Shown here: positions 641-56,764 of the stretch, in pieces
Position numbering within the stretch: position 1 is the first letter of the stretch
Layout of the letters: every line of letters begins with the position of its first letter
NCBI RefSeq assembly: GCF_900155655.1
Contig: NZ_LT706987.1
Coordinates: forward strand, 2,399,466-2,463,465
DNA from: Prevotella ihumii
Lineage (GTDB): Bacteria; Bacteroidota; Bacteroidia; Bacteroidales; Bacteroidaceae
Direction: 5' to 3'
Length of the DNA: 64,000 nucleotides
Position numbers and translations under genes: made by a program
Notes under the pieces: model-generated
The model's database searches: none
The model's input: only the letters and a program-made list of their open reading frames with translations
What the model was told of the DNA's origin: nothing

Positions 641-836
641 ATCCCAAATCGGTCGTTAGAATGAGAATGTATTTTGCGATTATTTTGAGATTTATTTTGC
701 ATATATCAAAGGAGCATAGCGGGCTATGTGACTGCAGATATAGGTAAAATAAAGCCAAAATAATCCAGAAGACAGCTCATAAGTTTCAAAAATAATAAAG
801 TAAGCACCTAAACTGGTCTAATGACCAAATTGGGTT
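641..836 (+). repeat. B element, copy 1
   Basis: 196 bp bounded by ATCCCAAATCGGTCGTTAG (641-659) and CTAATGACCAAATTGGGTT (818-836), which are imperfect inverted ends. The interior matches the copies at 20298, 35931 and 49119. It has nested A/T-rich inverted arms around CATAGC-GG-GCTATG (715-728). Confidence 0.9.
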
Positions 837-4452: not shown

Positions 4453-4649
4453 AACCCAAATCGGTCATTAGCCCGCAAAGGCTTTTAAAAGCGTTTAGCT
4501 GTTATGCTTTTCTTCGTCTTTGCACCTTATTTTGGCTTTTTTCGTTTGTTTTTTCAGTTGTTTAGCTCGCTAAACGTCTTCAAAAACAACCAAAAATAGC
4601 TCAAAATAAGCTCGCAAATCTCGAAGAAGTCTAACGACCGATTTGGGTT
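4453..4649 (+). repeat. A element, copy 1
   Basis: 197 bp with ends AACCCAAATCGGTCATTAG and CTAACGACCGATTTGGGTT (18 of 19 complementary). Core palindrome GTTTAGC-TC-GCTAAAC at 4560-4575, with nested TTATTTT/AAAATAA arms. Lies between purE and ispG. Confidence 0.92.
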
Positions 4650-6824: not shown

Positions 6825-8100
6825 ATTCCAACTCATTGAGACACAATAGTTCGGATGACAGCATATTAGTGACAAGCCCCCTTATTCATTTTCTGTTACC
6901 TCCGGTGGCGATTCCGCCGCTGCTTCAAGCATGAGTTTCATGTCGGCATCCGGCATATTGAAGAAATTATTCATGTTAAGGTATTCCATAAGTACAATGC
7001 GCACCATAGTAGCCAGCCCTGAGAAACTCCACCGCCTCTGCAATGAGCTTTGCAGCAGTGACAGTAATAGATTGGCAATGAGTGTGACCCAAATCTGTAT
7101 CTTGATGGCGTTGGCACTCTCCCTATAGAAGTATCTAAGCGGGAAGTTCTGTTTTATCTACTTGAAAAGAGACTCTATCTGCCACCTTCTGCGGAAGATG
7201 GCTACGATAGTCTCCATGGACATATCAAAGTCGTTGGTAAGCAAGGACACCAACTTTGACATCTTTCCCTTCTTGATATCCACATAGGTGATGATACGCG
7301 CTATATGGTTGATATCGCCCTTCCTGAATACCACCACCTGCTCACGATATTCCATCAGCCCATCCTCGTTCATATCCATGCAGTCTGCCAACACCTCGTA
7401 TTTGAGATTTTTCTTCATCTTGGTGACATAGACGACGTTCCTCTCGGTCAGTTCCTCAAACTTTTCATAGTTGATATATGCACGATCCAGGGCAATGATT
7501 TCATCATGCTTGAAATGGCTGGGGGCGAGCATAAAGGAATCGTTGGTCGCGGCAGAGGTGAACTTCACGTCACAATGAACTCCTTCGTTTGCATGAATGA
7601 CGGAATGCACTTTTATGCCTCCCTTCTTCTTTCCCGTCTTAGGATGCCGTCCCACGCCCTTGAAGATGACGTTAGAGAATAGGGTTATCGTGGTGGAATC
7701 GATGATTCTCAGACGTTTTATCCATTCCTCCGTACCATTGCGTCGGCTGTCCGAAGAAAGTCTGTCTTTATTGGACTCGTAAAGGTCATGGTACACGTCC
7801 TCAAAGAACTTCTCCGAGCGTCTGGCGTTCGCATCTGACAGGGTACTGCGCTTAGGAACCCTGTCAATGCCAATGTGGCGAAGCTTGCGCACCTCAGCTG
7901 TCATTGCCGCCTCTATCTCGCGCAGGGAGTCGAAGCGTATGATGACTGCATACAGCATCGTAAGAAGATGGGTGAAGCCGTCAAAGGTCTTCACATACCG
8001 CTCACCGCCGTTTTGTCGGCTCATCGTAGCTCTTTTATAGTCTTTCGATGGGTCTTTCAAACCTAACATCAAGGCTTTTGCTGTCTCATAGTGGGTCAGG
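6825..8100 (-). mobile_element. IS4-family insertion sequence (approximate ends)
   Basis: About 1.28 kb around the transposase pseudogene. Reading inward, both ends carry a similar segment: CTCATTGAGACACAA on the left (about 6832-6846) and CCACTATGAGACAGCAA on the right (about 8095-8079, minus strand). The alignment needs small gaps, so the boundaries and any target duplication are uncertain. The right end lies within a few bases of the tyrS stop codon at 8104. Confidence 0.6.
6882..8072 (-). pseudogene. IS4-family transposase interrupted by an amber stop
   Basis: The open frame runs from about 8072 (TTG, or the ATG at 8069) to a TAG at 7158-7160. The same frame then continues for about 91 codons to TAA at 6882-6884. 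The joined product (about 396 residues) reads as one DDE transposase: first Asp in RIIDSTTI, second in IALDRAYIN, and the YREK-type block with RRRWQIESLFK, then the TAG, then IKQNFPLRYF. Relatives have glutamine at the stop position, so a CAG to TAG change is the simplest explanation. The lysine of the YREK signature lies just after the stop, so the truncated product lacks it and should be inactive. Confidence 0.85.
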
Positions 8101-13645: not shown

Positions 13646-13747
13646 ATAAACAACAAATATTTAGCGTTTATTAGCCACAAATAGCCCGTAGGCAAGGGCT
13701 TAACATTTTATTTATACCTGTTGGCGGAATTAATTTAGTGAGTATTT

Positions 13748-13853
13748 AACCCAATGGGTCATTAGCCCAGTCGGACCAGTCGGACCAGTCGGACTTGTCT
13801 GACACGTCCGACTGGTCTGACTGGTCTGACAGGGCTAATGACCAACTTGGGTT
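13748..13853. repeat. C element, copy 1, inserted in E copy 1
   Basis: 106 bp with ends AACCCAATGGGTCATTAG and CTAATGACCAACTTGGGTT. The interior is a palindrome built from short GTCGGACCA-type units (GTCGGAC on the left, GTCCGAC/GTCTGAC on the right). Copy 3 of E has no such insertion at the matching point (near 56228). Confidence 0.88.
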
Positions 13854-13970
13854 TAATTCTCCCAATGAGTTTTGCTGTTGTGCTGATTTAACATTTTAAT
13901 TCCCCAAATAGAATTGTTTGATATTTCCTATTATATATTCTAAATCTCTTTTATTGATATTATAGAAAGC

Positions 13971-14051
13971 CAAAGTTCAACTTTGACAATGCCAAACATA
14001 TATGTTTTACCACCTCAACATTGATGTTTGGCAAAGCTAAAGTTCAACTTT
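13971..14051 (+). repeat. Palindrome array 2 (P2-P1-P1'-P2), inside E copy 1
   Basis: P2 CAAAGTTCAACTTTG centred at 13978, P1 AAACATATATGTTT at 14000.5, variant AACATTGATGTT at 14022.5, and P2 core AAAGTTCAACTTT at 14045. Steps are 22.5, 22 and 22.5 bp. Confidence 0.85.
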
Positions 14052-14382
14052 TACCTTCTAAAATACCACTTAATAGCACTTTTCTTGTTCATATTCTTCT
14101 TTTATTCATTCTATATTTCCGTAATCTAAGCACTATATTCTTGCACACTTTTTCCTGTTTACTCATTACTCATTATCAATCAACAGTTTACAATTGCACA
14201 CCCATTTATGCCACTTTTGTGTATCACGCTTCTTTTCAACGCATATACGAGAATTATGACCCTTGTATTTAACACTTATCCGAAGTAAAACGGAAAAATA
14301 GAAAAAGATAAAAGAGAAATACGCTATCTATCGAATAAGGTAACAATTGGTATAGTAGCTAAAAAATAATTCCGCCAACGGG

Positions 14383-14760
14383 TCAGGTATAGATATTCAG
14401 CACATACCGCCTTGATGTCCTGATCCACTTCTCTGGTACAGAGATAAACCTGAAGACAAAGGCTTTTATGCGACTTGTTGCATTGCGTCCGAACTTCTTT
14501 ACGGCTGGTTCTATAAATTAGCTTTGTTAGATTTTGACCTCAAAAACGGAGCAAGCCGAATGCAATCAATATTCTCTGCCATGAAGGATTTGGGCAATCT
14601 GTCCCACCCGAAACCATTGTTCATATCATCGAAGATACGTTGGATTTCATCCTTCGTTTTCTCTCCATGGCATAACTCGAACAAGCTCGATTCTGCTCAT
14701 TTGGCTTAACGAAAACGTTCCCATAGGTGCCTCGCTGTGGGTCGCCTTGTGTGAAGAATA
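14383..14760 (-). pseudogene. Degraded DDE transposase, C-terminal fragments
   Basis: Three pieces of one transposase can be read on the minus strand. Near 14750-14695 there is YGNVFVKPNEQNRA. After a frameshift, 14700-14560 gives SSLFELCHGEKTKDEIQR and then FDDMNNGFGWDRLPKSFM. After a D-element fragment, 14500-14383 gives KKFGRNATSRIKAF, then RFISVPEKWIRTSRRYVL and NIYT with a TGA stop at 14383-14385. The pattern is that of IS4/IS1380-type transposases (GWDRLPxSFM followed by KWIRTxRxxVLNIYT). It differs from the IS4 copy at 6.9-8.1 kb. The E-copy-1 right end abuts its stop. Confidence 0.7.
14503..14549 (-). repeat. D element fragment
   Basis: GGCTGGTTCTATAAATTA followed by GCTTTGTTAGATTTTGA matches one terminal arm of the full D element (30037-30233). 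Only about 45 bp remain. It splits the transposase remnant. Confidence 0.75.
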
Positions 14761-14982: not shown

Positions 14983-15179
14983 AACCCAAATCGGTCGTTA
15001 GCCCGCAAAGGCTTTTTAAAGAGTTTAGATGTTATGCTTTTCTTCGTCTTTGCACCTTATTTTGGCTCTTTTTGTTTGTTTTTTCAGTTGTTTAGCTCGC
15101 TAAACGTCTTCAAAAACAACCAAAAAAAGCTCAAAATAAGCTCGCAACTCTCGAAGAAGTCTAACGACCGATTTGGGTT
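14983..15179 (+). repeat. A element, copy 2
   Basis: 197 bp with perfect 19-bp inverted ends AACCCAAATCGGTCGTTAG / CTAACGACCGATTTGGGTT and the core palindrome GTTTAGC-TC-GCTAAAC. A short hairpin, CAAAGTGCAA-cat-TTGCACTTTG (about 15202-15224), follows and could terminate the regulator gene at 15312 (minus). Confidence 0.92.
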
Positions 15180-19921: not shown

Positions 19922-19942
19922 GTGTATGTACGCAAGGGGTGT

Positions 19943-20020
19943 GTAGGGGCTCGATTTATCGAGTTCCGCTTAACAACCTATGATAGGAGGAACTCGATAC
20001 GTGTTGATGAGCTTGCGAAT
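19943..20020 (+). repeat. F repeat, copy 1 (truncated at C2)
   Basis: Contains GGGGCTCGATTTATCGAG, then an inverted GGAACTCGATACGTG arm and the TTGATGAGCTTGCGAATAA segment that is also present in copy 3 at 31821. The expected closing GAGCCCC arm is missing where the C element begins. Confidence 0.75.
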
Positions 20021-20021
20021 A

Positions 20022-20128
20022 AACCCAAATTGGTCATTAGACCAGTCGGACCAGTCGGACTATTCAGACGTGTCAGACAAGTCCGACTGGTCCGACTGAT
20101 CTGACTGGTCTAACGACCGATTTGGGTT
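20022..20128. repeat. C element, copy 2
   Basis: 107 bp with ends AACCCAAATTGGTCATTAG and CTAACGACCGATTTGGGTT. The interior is the GTCGGAC/GTCCGAC palindrome, as in copy 1, built from short units. Confidence 0.88.
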
Positions 20129-20191
20129 TAACAAAAATATTGCCATAAGAAAGCTCCTTTTGAAACAGATTTTAATGTGCACAAGGGGCGT

Positions 20192-20262
20192 GTAGGGGCT
20201 CGATTTATCGAGTTCCGCTCAGTATAAACTGTTAAGCGGAACTCGGTAAATCGAGCCCCTAC
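20192..20262. repeat. F repeat, copy 2 (complete hairpin)
   Basis: GGGGCTCGATTTATCGAG and a following TTCCGCT arm pair with AGCGGAACTCGGTAAATCGAGCCCC, read in two parts. The whole is a 71-nt hairpin with a short central loop near AGTATAAACTG. Confidence 0.85.
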
Positions 20263-20297
20263 GTTACCCACACAAGCATTTGGGCATAATACCCTTT

Positions 20298-20493
20298 AAC
20301 CCAAATCGGTCGTGAGAATGAGAATGTATTTTGCGATTATTTTGAGATTTATTTTGCATATACCAAAGGAGCATAGCGGGCTATGTGACTGCAAATATAG
20401 GTAAAATAAAGCCAAAATAATCCAAAAGACATCTCATAAGTTTCAAAAATAATAAAGTAAGCACCTAAACTGGTCTAATGACCAATTTGGGAT
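20298..20493 (+). repeat. B element, copy 2
   Basis: 196 bp with ends AACCCAAATCGGTCGTGAG and CTAATGACCAATTTGGGAT. The interior is almost identical to copy 1, with the CATAGC-GG-GCTATG core. Confidence 0.9.
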
Positions 20494-20500
20494 AAAACAA

Positions 20501-21026
20501 CCCGTTGGCGGAATTATTTTTTAGCTACTATACCAATTGTTGCCTTATTCGATAGATAATGTATTTCTCTTTTATCTTTTTCTCTTTTTCCGTTTTACTT
20601 CGGATAAGTGTTAAATACACTGGTCATAATTTTCGTATATGCGTTGAAAAGAAGCGTGATACACAAAAGTGGTATAAATGGGTGTGCAATTGTAAACTGT
20701 TGATTGACAATGAATAATGAGTAAACAGAAAAAAGTGTGCAAAAATACACTGCTTAGATTACGGAAATATAGAATGAATAAAAGAAAAATGTGAACAAGA
20801 AAAGTGCTATTAAGTGGTATTTCAGAAGGTAAAAGTTGAACTTTAGCTTTGCCAAACATCAATGTTGAGGTGGTAAAACATATATGTTTGGCATTGTCAA
20901 AGTTGAACTTTTGCTTTCTATAATATCAACAAAAGAGATTTAGAATATATAATAAGAAATATCAAACAATTCTATTTGGGGAATTAAAATGTTAAATCAA
21001 CATAACAGCAAAAACCATTGGGTTAA
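20501..21026 (-). mobile_element. E element, copy 2 (reverse, truncated)
   Basis: CCCGTTGGCGGAATTATTTT starts at 20501, and the sequence then matches the reverse complement of E copy 1 closely. The match fades at about 21026 (CCAATGGTTTTTGCTG in reverse), so the far terminal repeat is missing. No C element is seen. It includes the same 83-residue frame as copy 1. Confidence 0.75.
20832..20911 (-). repeat. Palindrome array 3 (P2-P1'-P1-P2), inside E copy 2
   Basis: Centres: P2 core AAAGTTGAACTTT at 20838, variant AACATCAATGTT at 20860.5, P1 at 20882.5 and P2 at 20905. Steps are 22.5, 22 and 22.5 bp. The central G of P2 shows reverse orientation. Confidence 0.85.
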
Positions 21027-21079
21027 ACAGAGATGTCATAAAGAATAGAAGTCGTGTTATAGACTTCTTGAAAACATTC

Positions 21080-29604: not shown

Positions 29605-29661
29605 AACCCAAATCGTCATTAGAAAAAACTTTTTGTCATTTTCTAATGACCTATTTGGGAT
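29605..29661. repeat. Minimal AACCC-ended element
   Basis: 57 bp: AACCCAAATCGTCATTAG, a core of about 20 A/T-rich bases, and CTAATGACCTATTTGGGAT. It has the same ends as elements A, B and C but almost no interior, forming a simple hairpin. Confidence 0.8.
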
Positions 29662-29826
29662 AAACGTATTGTTATTCACATATCTTTCTACTTGGACTTG
29701 GTTGTGTTTCGATTTTAGCAGTACAGCACATAATATGTATAAGGTGAGAAATGGTACAAGGCTATTTATTGTTCTATTCTTCCTTTGCTTATCCCGCAGA
29801 TTTAATACATCAATCTTTTGTTTGCA

Positions 29827-29908
29827 AAACATATATGTTTGGCAGTGTCAAAGTTCAACTTTGGGAGGGTAAAACATATATGTTTTGGGTGGTGAAACAT
29901 ATATGTTT
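29827..29908 (+). repeat. Palindrome array 4 (P1-P2-P1-P1)
   Basis: P1 centred at 29833.5, P2 (CAAAGTTCAACTTTG) at 29856, P1 at 29878.5 and P1 at 29901.5. Steps are 22.5, 22.5 and 23 bp. The ATTGTTCTATTTTTC motif follows near 29983. Confidence 0.87.
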
Positions 29909-30036: not shown

Positions 30037-30233
30037 AAGGCTGGTTCTATAAATTACCACCGCATATCGTCATTAAATTTTTATGAAATACGTTTTGTTA
30101 TCTTTTGGCTTCTTTTGGGTTCAAAATGTAAGTTCGTTCAGTCGTGTAGCTCGCTACACTCCTTCACGCTCTTGCATTTTGACCTCAAAAATAAGCTCAA
30201 AATCTAACAAAGCTAATTTATAGAACCAGCCTT
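30037..30233 (+). repeat. D element, full copy
   Basis: 197 bp with perfect 20-bp inverted ends, AAGGCTGGTTCTATAAATTA and its complement; two more flanking bases on each side (TT/AA) extend the symmetry. Nested inverted arms (TTTTGGGTTCAAAATG and CATTTTGACCTCAAAA) enclose GTGTAGC-TC-GCTACAC (30144-30159). Ends differ from A/B/C, but size and plan are the same. Confidence 0.9.
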
Positions 30234-31789: not shown

Positions 31790-31820
31790 AAAGGTTTTTT
31801 TAAGTCTGCCCTTTCAGCGG

Positions 31821-31868
31821 GTAGGGGCTCGATTTATTCGCAAGCTCATCAACACGTATCGAGTTCCG
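31821..31868 (+). repeat. F repeat, copy 3
   Basis: GGGGCTCGATTTATTCGCAA followed by a stretch ending CACGTATCGAGTTCC. It shares this middle segment, in reverse, with copy 1 at 19988-20020. Confidence 0.7.
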
Positions 31869-31892
31869 AATAATACAAAAGGGGCGTGTGTT

Positions 31893-31995
31893 TGTTATTT
31901 CAGTTGTTTAGCTCGCTAAACGTCTTCAAAAACAACCAAAAATAGCTCAAAATAAGCTCGCAAATCTCGGAGAAGTCTAACGAACGATTTGGGTT
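31893..31995 (+). repeat. A element, right half only
   Basis: About 103 bp matching the right half of A elements, including TTTAGC-TC-GCTAAA and the end CTAACGAACGATTTGGGTT (31977-31995). The left half and left end are missing. Confidence 0.85.
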
Positions 31996-35930: not shown

Positions 35931-36126
35931 AACCCAAATCGGTCGTTAGAATGAGAATGTATTTTGCGATTATGTTGAGATTTATTTTGCATATATCAAA
36001 GGAGCATAGCGGGCTATGTGACTGCAGATATAGGTAAAATAAAGCCAAAATAAGGCAAAAGACAGCTCATAAGTTTCAAAAATAATAAAGTAAGCACCTA
36101 AACTGGTCTAATGACCGATTTGGGTT
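35931..36126 (+). repeat. B element, copy 3
   Basis: 196 bp with ends AACCCAAATCGGTCGTTAG and CTAATGACCGATTTGGGTT. It ends 9 bp before the start of the RNase H-like gene, so that gene's promoter would have to lie within or across the element. Confidence 0.92.
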
Positions 36127-42147: not shown

Positions 42148-42344
42148 ATCCCAAATCGGTCGTTAGACTTCTTCGAGATTTGCGAGCTTATTTTGAGCTA
42201 TTTTTGGTTGTTTTTGAAGACGTTTAGCGAGCTAAACAACTGAAAAAACAAACGAAAAGAGCCAAAATAAGGTGCAAAGACGAAGAAAAGCATAACAGCT
42301 AAACGCTTTAAAAAGCCTTTGCGGGCTAATGAGCGATTTGGGTT
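42148..42344 (-). repeat. A element, copy 3 (reverse)
   Basis: 197 bp, ATCCCAAATCGGTCGTTAG to CTAATGAGCGATTTGGGTT, in reverse orientation relative to copy 1, with core GTTTAGC-GA-GCTAAAC. Confidence 0.92.
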
Positions 42345-42345
42345 T

Positions 42346-42542
42346 AACCCAAATCGGTTGTTAGACTTCTTCGAGATTTGCGAGCTTATTTTGAGCTATT
42401 TTTGGTTGTTTTTGAAGACGCTTAGCGAGCTAAACAACTGAAAAAACAAACGAAAAGAGCCAAAATAAGGTGCAAAGACGAAGAAAAGCATAACAGCTAA
42501 ACGCTTTAAAAAGCCTTTGCGGGCTAATGAGCGATTTGGGTT
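42346..42542 (-). repeat. A element, copy 4 (reverse, tandem with copy 3)
   Basis: 197 bp, AACCCAAATCGGTTGTTAG to CTAATGAGCGATTTGGGTT. It starts one base after copy 3 ends, in the same orientation, and is nearly identical. It differs from copy 3 at several positions, including GCTTAGC in place of GTTTAGC on one arm of the core. Confidence 0.92.
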
Positions 42543-48825: not shown

Positions 48826-48910
48826 TATTCTATCTTTTATTCACAGCCCATTATTGTTCTGTTTTTCGGCTTTCCATCTATCCAAAATAAAACATCTATC
48901 TTTCATTTCC

Positions 48911-48993
48911 AAAACATATATGTTTGACATTGCCAAAGTTCAACTTTGACAGGGCAAAACATATATGTATTGGGTGATAAAACATATATGTTT
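48911..48993 (+). repeat. Palindrome array 5 (P1-P2-P1-P1)
   Basis: P1 centred at 48918.5, P2 (CAAAGTTCAACTTTG) at 48941, a slightly altered P1 (AAACATATATGTAT) at 48963.5, and P1 at 48986.5. Steps are 22.5, 22.5 and 23 bp, the same as array 4. ATTGTTCTGTTTTTC (near 48853) and ATTGTTCTATTTTTC (near 49066) flank it. Confidence 0.87.
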
Positions 48994-49118: not shown

Positions 49119-49314
49119 AACCCCAAGCGGTCATTAGACCAGTTTAGGCGCTTACTTTATTATTTTTGAAACTTATGAGATGTCTTTTGGATTATTTTGG
49201 CTTTATTTTACCTATATCTGCAGTCACATAGCCCGCTATGCTCCTTTGATATATGCAAAATAAATCGCAAAATAATCGCAAAATACATTCTCATTCTAAC
49301 GAGCGATTTGGATT
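49119..49314 (-). repeat. B element, copy 4 (reverse)
   Basis: 196 bp, AACCCCAAGCGGTCATTAG to CTAACGAGCGATTTGGATT, reverse orientation, with CATAGC-CC-GCTATG in the core. Ends are more diverged than in other copies. Confidence 0.88.
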
Positions 49315-54468: not shown

Positions 54469-54665
54469 AACCCAAATCGGTCGTTAGCCCGCAAAGGCTT
54501 TTTAAAGCGTTTAGATGTTATGCTTTTCTTCGTCTTTGCACCTTATTTTGGCTCTTTTCGTTTGTTTTTTCAGTTGTTTAGCTCGCTAAACGTCTTCAAA
54601 AACAACTCAAAATAGCTCAAAATAAGCTCGCAAATCTCGAAGAAGTCTAACGACCGATTTGGGTT
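54469..54665 (+). repeat. A element, copy 5, between kinase and regulator
   Basis: 197 bp with perfect 19-bp inverted ends and core GTTTAGC-TC-GCTAAAC. It starts 10 bp after the kinase stop and ends 51 bp before the regulator start. Confidence 0.93.
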
Positions 54666-56200: not shown

Positions 56201-56764
56201 CCTATTGGCAAAATTAATTTAGTGCGTATTAACTTCTTCCAATGGGCTTTGCTCTATGCTGATTTAACATTTGAAATCCACAAATAGGATTGTTCGGTAT
56301 TTCTTATTATATATTCGAAATCTCTTTTGTTGATATTACAGAAAGTCAAAGTTCAACTTTGACAATGCCAAACATATATGTTTTACTGCCCAAACATTGA
56401 TGTTTGGCGTCCCCAAAGTTGAACTTTTACCGTCTAAAATACCACTTAATAGCACTTTTCTTGTTCATATTCTCTTTTTATTCATTCTATATTACCGCTA
56501 TCGGAGTACTATATTCTTGCACACTTTCTTCTATCTCTTCATTACTCATTACTAATCAGCTATTTACAATTGCACACGCATTTATACCACTTTTGTGTAT
56601 CACGCTTCTTTTGAACGCATATACAAGAATTATGACCAGTGTATTTAACACTTACCCAACATAAAACAGAAAAATAGAAAAAGATAAGCGATAAATGCGT
56701 TATCCATCGAATAAGGTAAGAATAGGTATAGTGGCTAAAAAATAAAAAGAACGCTGCCAACGGG
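56201..56764 (+). mobile_element. E element, copy 3 (uninterrupted)
   Basis: About 564 bp. It starts CCTATTGGCAAAATTAATTT and ends near CGCTGCCAACGGG. It is colinear with E copy 1 but lacks the C insertion: where copy 1 has the C element after GTGAGTATT, this copy reads GTGCGTATTAACTTCTTCC straight through (56222-56240). Confidence 0.75.
56346..56427 (+). repeat. Palindrome array 6 (P2-P1-P1'-P2), inside E copy 3
   Basis: Centres: P2 at 56354, P1 at 56376.5, variant AACATTGATGTT at 56398.5, and P2 (with central G) at 56421. Steps are 22.5, 22 and 22.5 bp. Confidence 0.85.

Follow-up and report, generated by a model that had tools for sequence, protein, structure and literature searches.

The repeats that recur through a 64,000-nucleotide stretch of the Prevotella ihumii genome (the window) are almost certainly MITEs of an IS1380-family element, and as a statement of class this is ordinary. 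It is less ordinary that a single hairpin module, with strand-specific pairing and carried in elements of nearly fixed length, is common to elements with two lengths of target-site duplication and several end sequences in Bacteroidales. Taken as a whole, the observations are best explained, with a probability that we put at about 0.7, by MITEs moved by an IS1380-family transposase, whose main interior is a single hairpin module selected in transposing lineages and whose ends are occasionally replaced.

Ends, lengths and target-site duplications

A preliminary description of the window had proposed 19-bp ends around interiors A and B, giving copies of 197 and 196 bp. The repeated ends are real: 23 matches to the 19-mer occur in the window at up to three mismatches and none in 100 shuffles, and the 3.32-Mb genome carries 247 + 233 ends, with none in a reversed-pattern control. 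The first two letters of the 19-mer, however, belong to the target duplication, so the true ends are CCCAAATCGGTCRTTAG, starting at CCC, and A measures 193 bp and B 192 bp. We paired the ends in a sample of 1,254,980 bases from this genome, window included, picked mostly around listed ends, so that element densities from it are biased; its 306 ends gave 116 pairs, with length peaks at 193 bp (48 pairs) and 192 bp (23). As in MITEs, the repeats are terminal and inverted, and the interiors are transposase-free, 111 of the 116 end pairs being only 50-204 bp. A target-site duplication of fixed length, likewise a MITE character, is also present: equal 5-bp flanks occur in 68 of the 116 elements, against a mean of 25.4 and a maximum of 36 in 200 shuffles of partners. 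The length is exact, with no excess at 4 bp (9 vs 16.5) or 6 bp (1 vs 0.6), and 51 of the 68 duplications are TTAAA or TTTAA. A matching 5-bp duplication is missing in 48 of the 116 elements, which counts against our preferred explanation.

Between these ends the window holds five full A elements and one half, four B elements and two C elements, the copy numbers that the preliminary description had given (A at 4453, 14983, 42148, 42346 and 54469; B at 641, 20298, 35931 and 49119; C at 13747 and 20022), and the 57-bp form that it had reported is present at 29605-29661. Measured from the true ends, and with the strand being that which reads the hairpin forward, A occupies 4455..4647 (193 bp, minus strand, TTTAA on both sides), 14985..15177 (minus, TTAAA/TTCAA, one mismatch), 54471..54663 (minus, TTAAA on both sides) and, as a tandem pair, 42150..42342 and 42348..42540 (both plus, outer flanks TTAAT/TTAAT, common inner TTTAA); the half A at 31890..31993 (about 31890-31995, minus) has a single end, the rest being other sequence. 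B occupies 643..834 (192 bp, plus, TTTAT on both sides), 20300..20491 (plus, TTTAA on the left and ATAAA on the right), 35933..36124 (plus, TTAAA on both sides) and 49121..49312 (minus, TTGAA on both sides). The C elements, given without strand, consist of NNGTCNGAC tandem units: that at 13750..13851 has a left end one base short, lies between two copies of TTTAA and forms the terminus of a larger repeat, and that at 20024..20126 has ATAAA on the left and TTTAA on the right, its outer flank being that of the B element at 20300. The short form (29607..29659, also without strand) is an IS1380 terminal region between two ends, with the unlike flanks TTTAA/ATAAA.

A perfect 5-bp duplication borders six of the 11 full elements in the window, and one more has a single mismatch. 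The other four form two adjacent pairs with matching outer flanks, ATAAA for 20022/20298 and TTAAT for 42148/42346. Across 20022-20493 and 42148-42542 it is the outer 5-bp flanks that match and not each element's own, which suggests that the members of each pair were jointly transposed.

Two exact empty sites support transposition. At one (L064), a B element has landed within the tail of one A copy with TTTAA on both sides, where other A copies have one TTTAA; at the other (L035), a copy of the IS1380-family element described below interrupts a gene, and its flanks joined via a single TTTAA form an open frame across the junction. At the site of the A element at 4453, no end occurs at up to five mismatches in five of six loci from the best-matching other genomes (L137-L142), and the sixth has one match at five; these loci are weak empty-site evidence, because they come from other species with flanking genes 71-82% identical.

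An IS1380-family relative with the same ends

The ends were found at up to two mismatches in 25 of 60 genomes in a scan of the genus, and in one genome the same ends enclose 1,465 bp, within which lies a gene of 443 aa. The protein is an IS1380-family transposase (NF033539, E 1.6e-72, 244.5 bits against a cut-off of 180) with the Pfam domains DDE_Tnp_1_4 and DDE_Tnp_1. A scan of named genomes returned 26 IS relatives, in Prevotella (including Prevotella sp. UBA1378), Hallella and others. We inspected the ends of 21 of these, leaving out L127, L128 and L130-L132; exactly CCCAAATCGGTCATTAG stands upstream of the transposase gene in 20 of the 21, the remaining locus (L112) being without that DNA. 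Both ends are visible in 13 of the 21, and eight of these 13 have equal 5-bp flanks, consistent with the 4-5 bp duplications of the IS1380 family; the five two-ended copies without them count against our preferred explanation. L035/L110 and 12 further two-ended copies thus represent an autonomous relative with the same ends, such as MITEs have. The proposal that one mobilising enzyme recognises the ends had been made with a gene-carrying relative as its check; one exists in several species, and together with the 5-bp duplications and the two empty sites it makes such an enzyme probable.

No intact IS1380 transposase was found in the P. ihumii genome itself by protein search, a point against our preferred explanation; the search returned two adjacent fragments only (76% and 86% identity, together residues 2-191), and the fragmentary gene breaks off at an A element. 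The 57-bp form, which had been taken for a near-empty element, is no emptied copy of either A or B, since 37 consecutive bases (29615-29651) are identical to the terminus of the IS remnant at 472 kb of the same genome (G000:C1), and the form is therefore an IS-end derivative. By contrast, two-ended 192-193-bp elements match the IS by blastn at their ends alone, and interiors of the 193-bp kind thus do not resemble simple internal deletions.

Core C and neighbouring repeats

Core C had been described as 106/107 bp long. Its length is not fixed: 23 of 24 C elements in the sample from this genome measure 58 + 9n bp, those inspected as sequence consisting of NNGTCNGAC units. A larger repeat with CCGTTGGCGGAATTA-like ends lies at 13720-14390, 20500-21030 and 56257-56556 of the window. 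Related genomes (L289, L290) contain insertion sequences with ACCCGTTGGCGGAATTAA ends and a PF01609 transposase, of which the larger repeats may be non-autonomous relatives. A palindromic repeat around TCGATTTATCGAGTTCCGC occurs at 19926-19999, 20175-20260 and 31820-31870; near 20 kb it adjoins the C and B elements, and at 31.8 kb the half A is fused to it. Arrays that alternate AAAGTTGAACTTT-like and AACATATATGTTTT-like palindromes are found at 462-528, 13944-14055, 20804-20910, 29822-29900, 48907-48973 and 56320-56453, and a frame resembling a transposase (PF01609), interrupted by a single in-frame stop, lies at 7074-7718 (G000:C1:2406539-2407183).

Cores A and B are relatives of one hairpin

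The interiors of A and B, previously called unrelated, align locally with a score of 61, against 37 for the best of 300 dinucleotide shuffles. Moreover, with a covariance model (R1) built from 28 cores of other species, the ends being excluded, all five full A elements and all four B elements in the window are recovered at E 2e-8 to 2e-6, and the C hairpins there are not. Cores A and B are homologous: they are diverged forms of one hairpin, not cargoes that were swapped. An element in another locus (L199:11503) resembles an A/B hybrid, as judged by eye. Searched with Rfam covariance models, the window yields only a tRNA at gathering score.

The hairpin family of the genus is about 193 bp long, with its centre near TAGCGGGCTA. 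We searched 25 genomes, picked because they hold many seeds, for interiors between such ends with 145-205 bp allowed, and obtained matches in 16 of them; among the matches listed (99 forward in all), 71 of 75 two-ended elements, from 13 other genomes, measure 191-196 bp. One element from another species (L240:500-692, genome G010) is so like the A of P. ihumii that A was dropped as its near-duplicate during alignment (score ratio >0.94), and it stands beside an 85% relative (L055). The likeness of this copy to A suggests a recent exchange between species.

Covariation and a strand-specific wobble bias

We aligned 32 elements (alignment A2) that had been preselected at 188-197 bp, near-duplicates being dropped; gaps are few, and the even length is partly by choice because of the preselection. 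On A2, a 50-pair hairpin has 86.8% of cells paired, compared with 70.4 in shuffles, and 274 cells are changed on both sides, compared with 90±9 in shuffles and 61-90 in slid controls; two-sided change affects 40 of the 50 pairs. The compared sequences are kin by descent, and P-values overstate their independence.

For counts of mismatches, structures were predicted with G·U forbidden, and single mismatches inside helices were taken from pairs kept on both strands. G·U outnumbers A·C by 28:2 in 14 IS1380-ended cores, by 22:2 in 21 other-ended cores (18:1 with one per genome) and by 46:3 with one core per genome and end type. The reverse-complement control gives the mirrored counts, and the method is therefore unbiased. 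Counted with a G·U-free structure, A2 has 94 G·U to 30 A·C over 43 pairs, with G·U in excess in 25 rows, fewer in three and tied in four; the forward strand folds more stably in 36 of 36 tested, one of which repeats another.

Compensatory changes and strand-specific wobble, the marks of a structured RNA, are thus seen across species, but not among the A and B copies of P. ihumii, and they are weak in genomes G053 and G365. Within P. ihumii, G·U to A·C is 22:20 in A copies and 5:5 in B copies; the four A/B-lineage rows of A2 (three from P. ihumii, one from G010) sum to 8:8, and two class V cores (see below) have 0:2. Counted by cells, the ratio is 8:0 in G053 and 34:16 in G365; the two together have 21:12 distinct events (P 0.16), in a test of limited power. 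Paired double changes are absent from the A and B copies of P. ihumii, and G365 has one against two unpaired. Paired sites take up substitutions more slowly than unpaired ones in three of the sets (A, G053 and G365) and faster in the fourth, B. We infer that selection for pairing acts mainly in lineages with continuing transposition and that a copy is little maintained once it has inserted.

Related hairpins between other ends

Among 121 genomes of the family, 34 have the core by R1, and they represent 17 of 30 genera. We inspected 23 of 30 R1 loci, omitting two same-genus class I loci, that of P. ihumii, L261 and L269-L271 (L271 was added later), with the ends of L248, L253 and L254 read by eye. 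The IS1380 ends (class I) border 12 of the 23, in some cases in degraded form, and the other 11 have different ends: close to AGAAACTGTTTNAATTT in seven (class II), AAGTAGGTGTTCAAAATTA in two (class III), TTAGTGATGGTTAAATAATAA in one (class IV) and class V-like in one. Class II and III ends occur in dozens in some genomes (93 + 79 in G462, 58 + 58 in G508, 46 + 56 in G459). An order-level search with a second model, R2, whose automatic structure of only 25 pairs served for finding and not for covariation, located the core in three of 40 genomes, that of P. ihumii included; a genome of another family (G822) has 42 matches, mostly with class II-like ends at the 14 loci examined, and one of a third family (G810) has one match, with class I ends. 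A phylum-wide search with R1 gave 0 of 296, the genome of P. ihumii likewise giving none although it carries the core, so that this negative is uninformative.

The relationship is also visible, in part, from primary sequence. A sequence-only profile of class I cores, with the targets run in one set with 378 controls, scores eight of 15 class II-IV elements above the best control (9.0-29.0 bits vs 8.5; E 8e-8 to 0.12); of the rest, four reach 5.6-8.1 bits and three have no notable match at the core, and class V elements are at noise, at about 2 bits. Pairwise, a class V core scores 55 with A, just above the best shuffle of 51, and 60 with B (best shuffle 37). The centre of the B element of P. 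ihumii, GGAGCATAGCGGGCTATGTGACTG, reappears, altered at a single position, in two elements of class II.

Class V ends, GGCTGGTTCTATAAATTA, number 82 + 86 in the P. ihumii genome at up to three mismatches. The window contains one such element, absent from the preliminary description: it is 193 bp long (30039..30231, minus strand, TTAA on both sides), with a related hairpin core at 30090-30213. Of 27 class V pairs in the sample from this genome, eight are exactly 193 bp long, and 22 have an exact 4-bp duplication (2.6 in shuffles, maximum 8) and none a 5-bp duplication; class I elements duplicate 5 bp, so a different enzyme is indicated. One of the 27 carries core A, with 93.6% identity to positions 24-147 of the A interior, between 4-bp duplications of ATAA. 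No other observation points so directly to the ability of a core to change ends and move again, but it is a single case. Because related hairpins, including core A itself, sit between other ends, the hairpin module has been combined with several kinds of end. The earlier suggestion that interiors are swapped or evolve separately was therefore half right: divergence from one hairpin, and not a swap, accounts for A and B, and a swap across end types was seen once.

No transposase for end classes II-V was found in a PF01609 scan of six genomes, of whose listed matches 30 loci were examined, nor in scans of viral contigs with class II, III and V ends (7, 0 and 4 stretches, respectively); a further scan with the apex returned nothing. 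One stretch of 1,887 bp enclosed by class V ends was considered as a gene-carrying candidate and rejected as a MITE interrupted by another IS. At L174:9495-11100, an IS with TTGCTGTCCGGTAAAACT ends and a DDE transposase is inserted into a class V element; a TTGCTGTCCGGTAAAACT end also interrupts a B element in L196 near 2010, and several IS copies with such ends were seen in the P. ihumii genome. On a viral contig (L356:1621-1793), class V ends enclose GTGGGACTAG-like tandem units, a parallel to core C.

Discussion

In the explanation that we prefer, an IS1380-family transposase would recognise CCCAAATCGGTCRTTAG ends, make 5-bp duplications at TTTAA-like targets and move the MITEs in trans. 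The main interior, A and B here and diverged relatives elsewhere, would be a single hairpin module around which elements of about 193 bp are built. Selection would have favoured it as a folded single strand, in all likelihood RNA, though possibly single-stranded DNA of one strand. This selection would act in lineages that keep transposing, a landed copy receiving little upkeep. We infer that the hairpin has a function, and it may help the element to spread or to be tolerated. Recombination between elements that share the hairpin would occasionally replace the ends and thereby bring the module under other transposases. A bolder version, which we entertain only tentatively and regard as somewhat doubtful, places the unit of selection in the hairpin RNA module: this would be a selfish folded RNA, specific to one strand and present in at least three Bacteroidales families, that multiplies by borrowing the ends of several unrelated transposases and whose fold is maintained only in jumping lineages.

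The paired changes might instead be the work of template switching. Long palindromes are self-correcting, and rewriting of imperfect palindromes could produce paired changes without selection in the passive interiors of ordinary IS1380-linked MITEs; the few paired double changes among copies inside genomes agree with this. Template switching should be strand-symmetric, however, and the 46:3 excess of G·U over A·C therefore speaks against it, as does the narrow length range of the listed elements in a search that allowed 145-205 bp, and we consider it unlikely. The hairpins could also serve the host, as 3'-end stabilisers, terminators or regulatory RNAs kept where they are useful to neighbouring genes. 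None of 79 A/B elements lies inside an ORF of at least 90 aa (by rule-of-thumb ORF calls), and gaps between convergent genes are enriched, with 27 of 78 elements against 143 of 848 gaps, but purging of harmful insertions would yield the same bias of location. Since, in addition, orientation to codirectional genes is unbiased (20 sense, 20 antisense) and paired sites, compared with unpaired ones, are the more conserved in A and the less conserved in B, selection for host use seems to us decidedly unlikely.

Long hairpins are common in MITEs, and each end class could have evolved its own independently, the likeness of the cores then not being due to descent. By sequence alone, seven of the 15 class II-IV elements and all class V elements are indeed not above the best control. 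Against such convergence stand the other eight, the recurrence of the B centre in class II, the outright presence of core A inside a class V element and the failure of R1 to match the C hairpins of the window, and we find it very improbable. As for the ends being a terminator or protein-binding site with no empty sites between strains, the outcome against which the preliminary description had set its own reading, they are indeed mutually inverted and intergenic; exact duplications, two exact empty sites and, in several species, the enclosure of a transposase gene by these very ends lead us to reject it, with practically no weight left to it.

The interiors of MITEs are commonly regarded as passive remnants. 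Between species, the length and fold of this hairpin persist and its sequence turns over, pairs covary, and a wobble bias marks one strand. If selection in transposing lineages is the right reading, then the weak or absent bias inside genomes separates it from host use, and the question of why many bacterial MITEs are long hairpins becomes testable. Exchange of ends around a conserved core would, moreover, let a non-autonomous element outlive its transposase.

Comparison with known elements

The repeats resemble IS1380 insertion sequences (NF033539) and their derivatives in transposase model, inverted ends and short W-rich duplication, and the 57-bp form, being built of IS terminal sequence, is alike as well; the 193-bp interiors differ, their likeness to the IS being confined to the ends by blastn. 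In the open-access full-text literature, we found no paper that combines IS1380, MITE and Prevotella. ERIC and Correia/NEMIS are small intergenic elements present in many copies, whose transcripts fold into long hairpins; they differ from the Prevotella elements in host, ends and sequence.

Within Bacteroidales, BrickBuilt, MITE239 and MITE464/PgRS are MITEs of Porphyromonas gingivalis (PMC4596501). BrickBuilt and 464/PgRS have tandem repeats between inverted ends, with units of 23 and 41 nt, and the ends of BrickBuilt are closest to ISPg1/ISPg9, classed there as IS5; elements with similar ends but unlike interiors were remarked on (PMC4596501). As a MITE that holds a minisatellite, BrickBuilt parallels core C, which has 9-bp units; a hairpin common to end classes does not figure in the relevant passages on the P. 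gingivalis MITEs (PMC4596501). Prevotella is named 0 times in the text on GTAG/CGTC REP elements, which are palindromic, high-copy sequences of 20-40 bp, those of the GTAG type being thought to be moved by RAYT enzymes (PMC3733652). There, G·T pairing in the stems was read as a hint of RNA function (PMC3733652). In being palindromic and high-copy, these REP elements are like the Prevotella hairpins, from which they differ in being shorter and, for the GTAG type, in their probable link to RAYT enzymes (PMC3733652).
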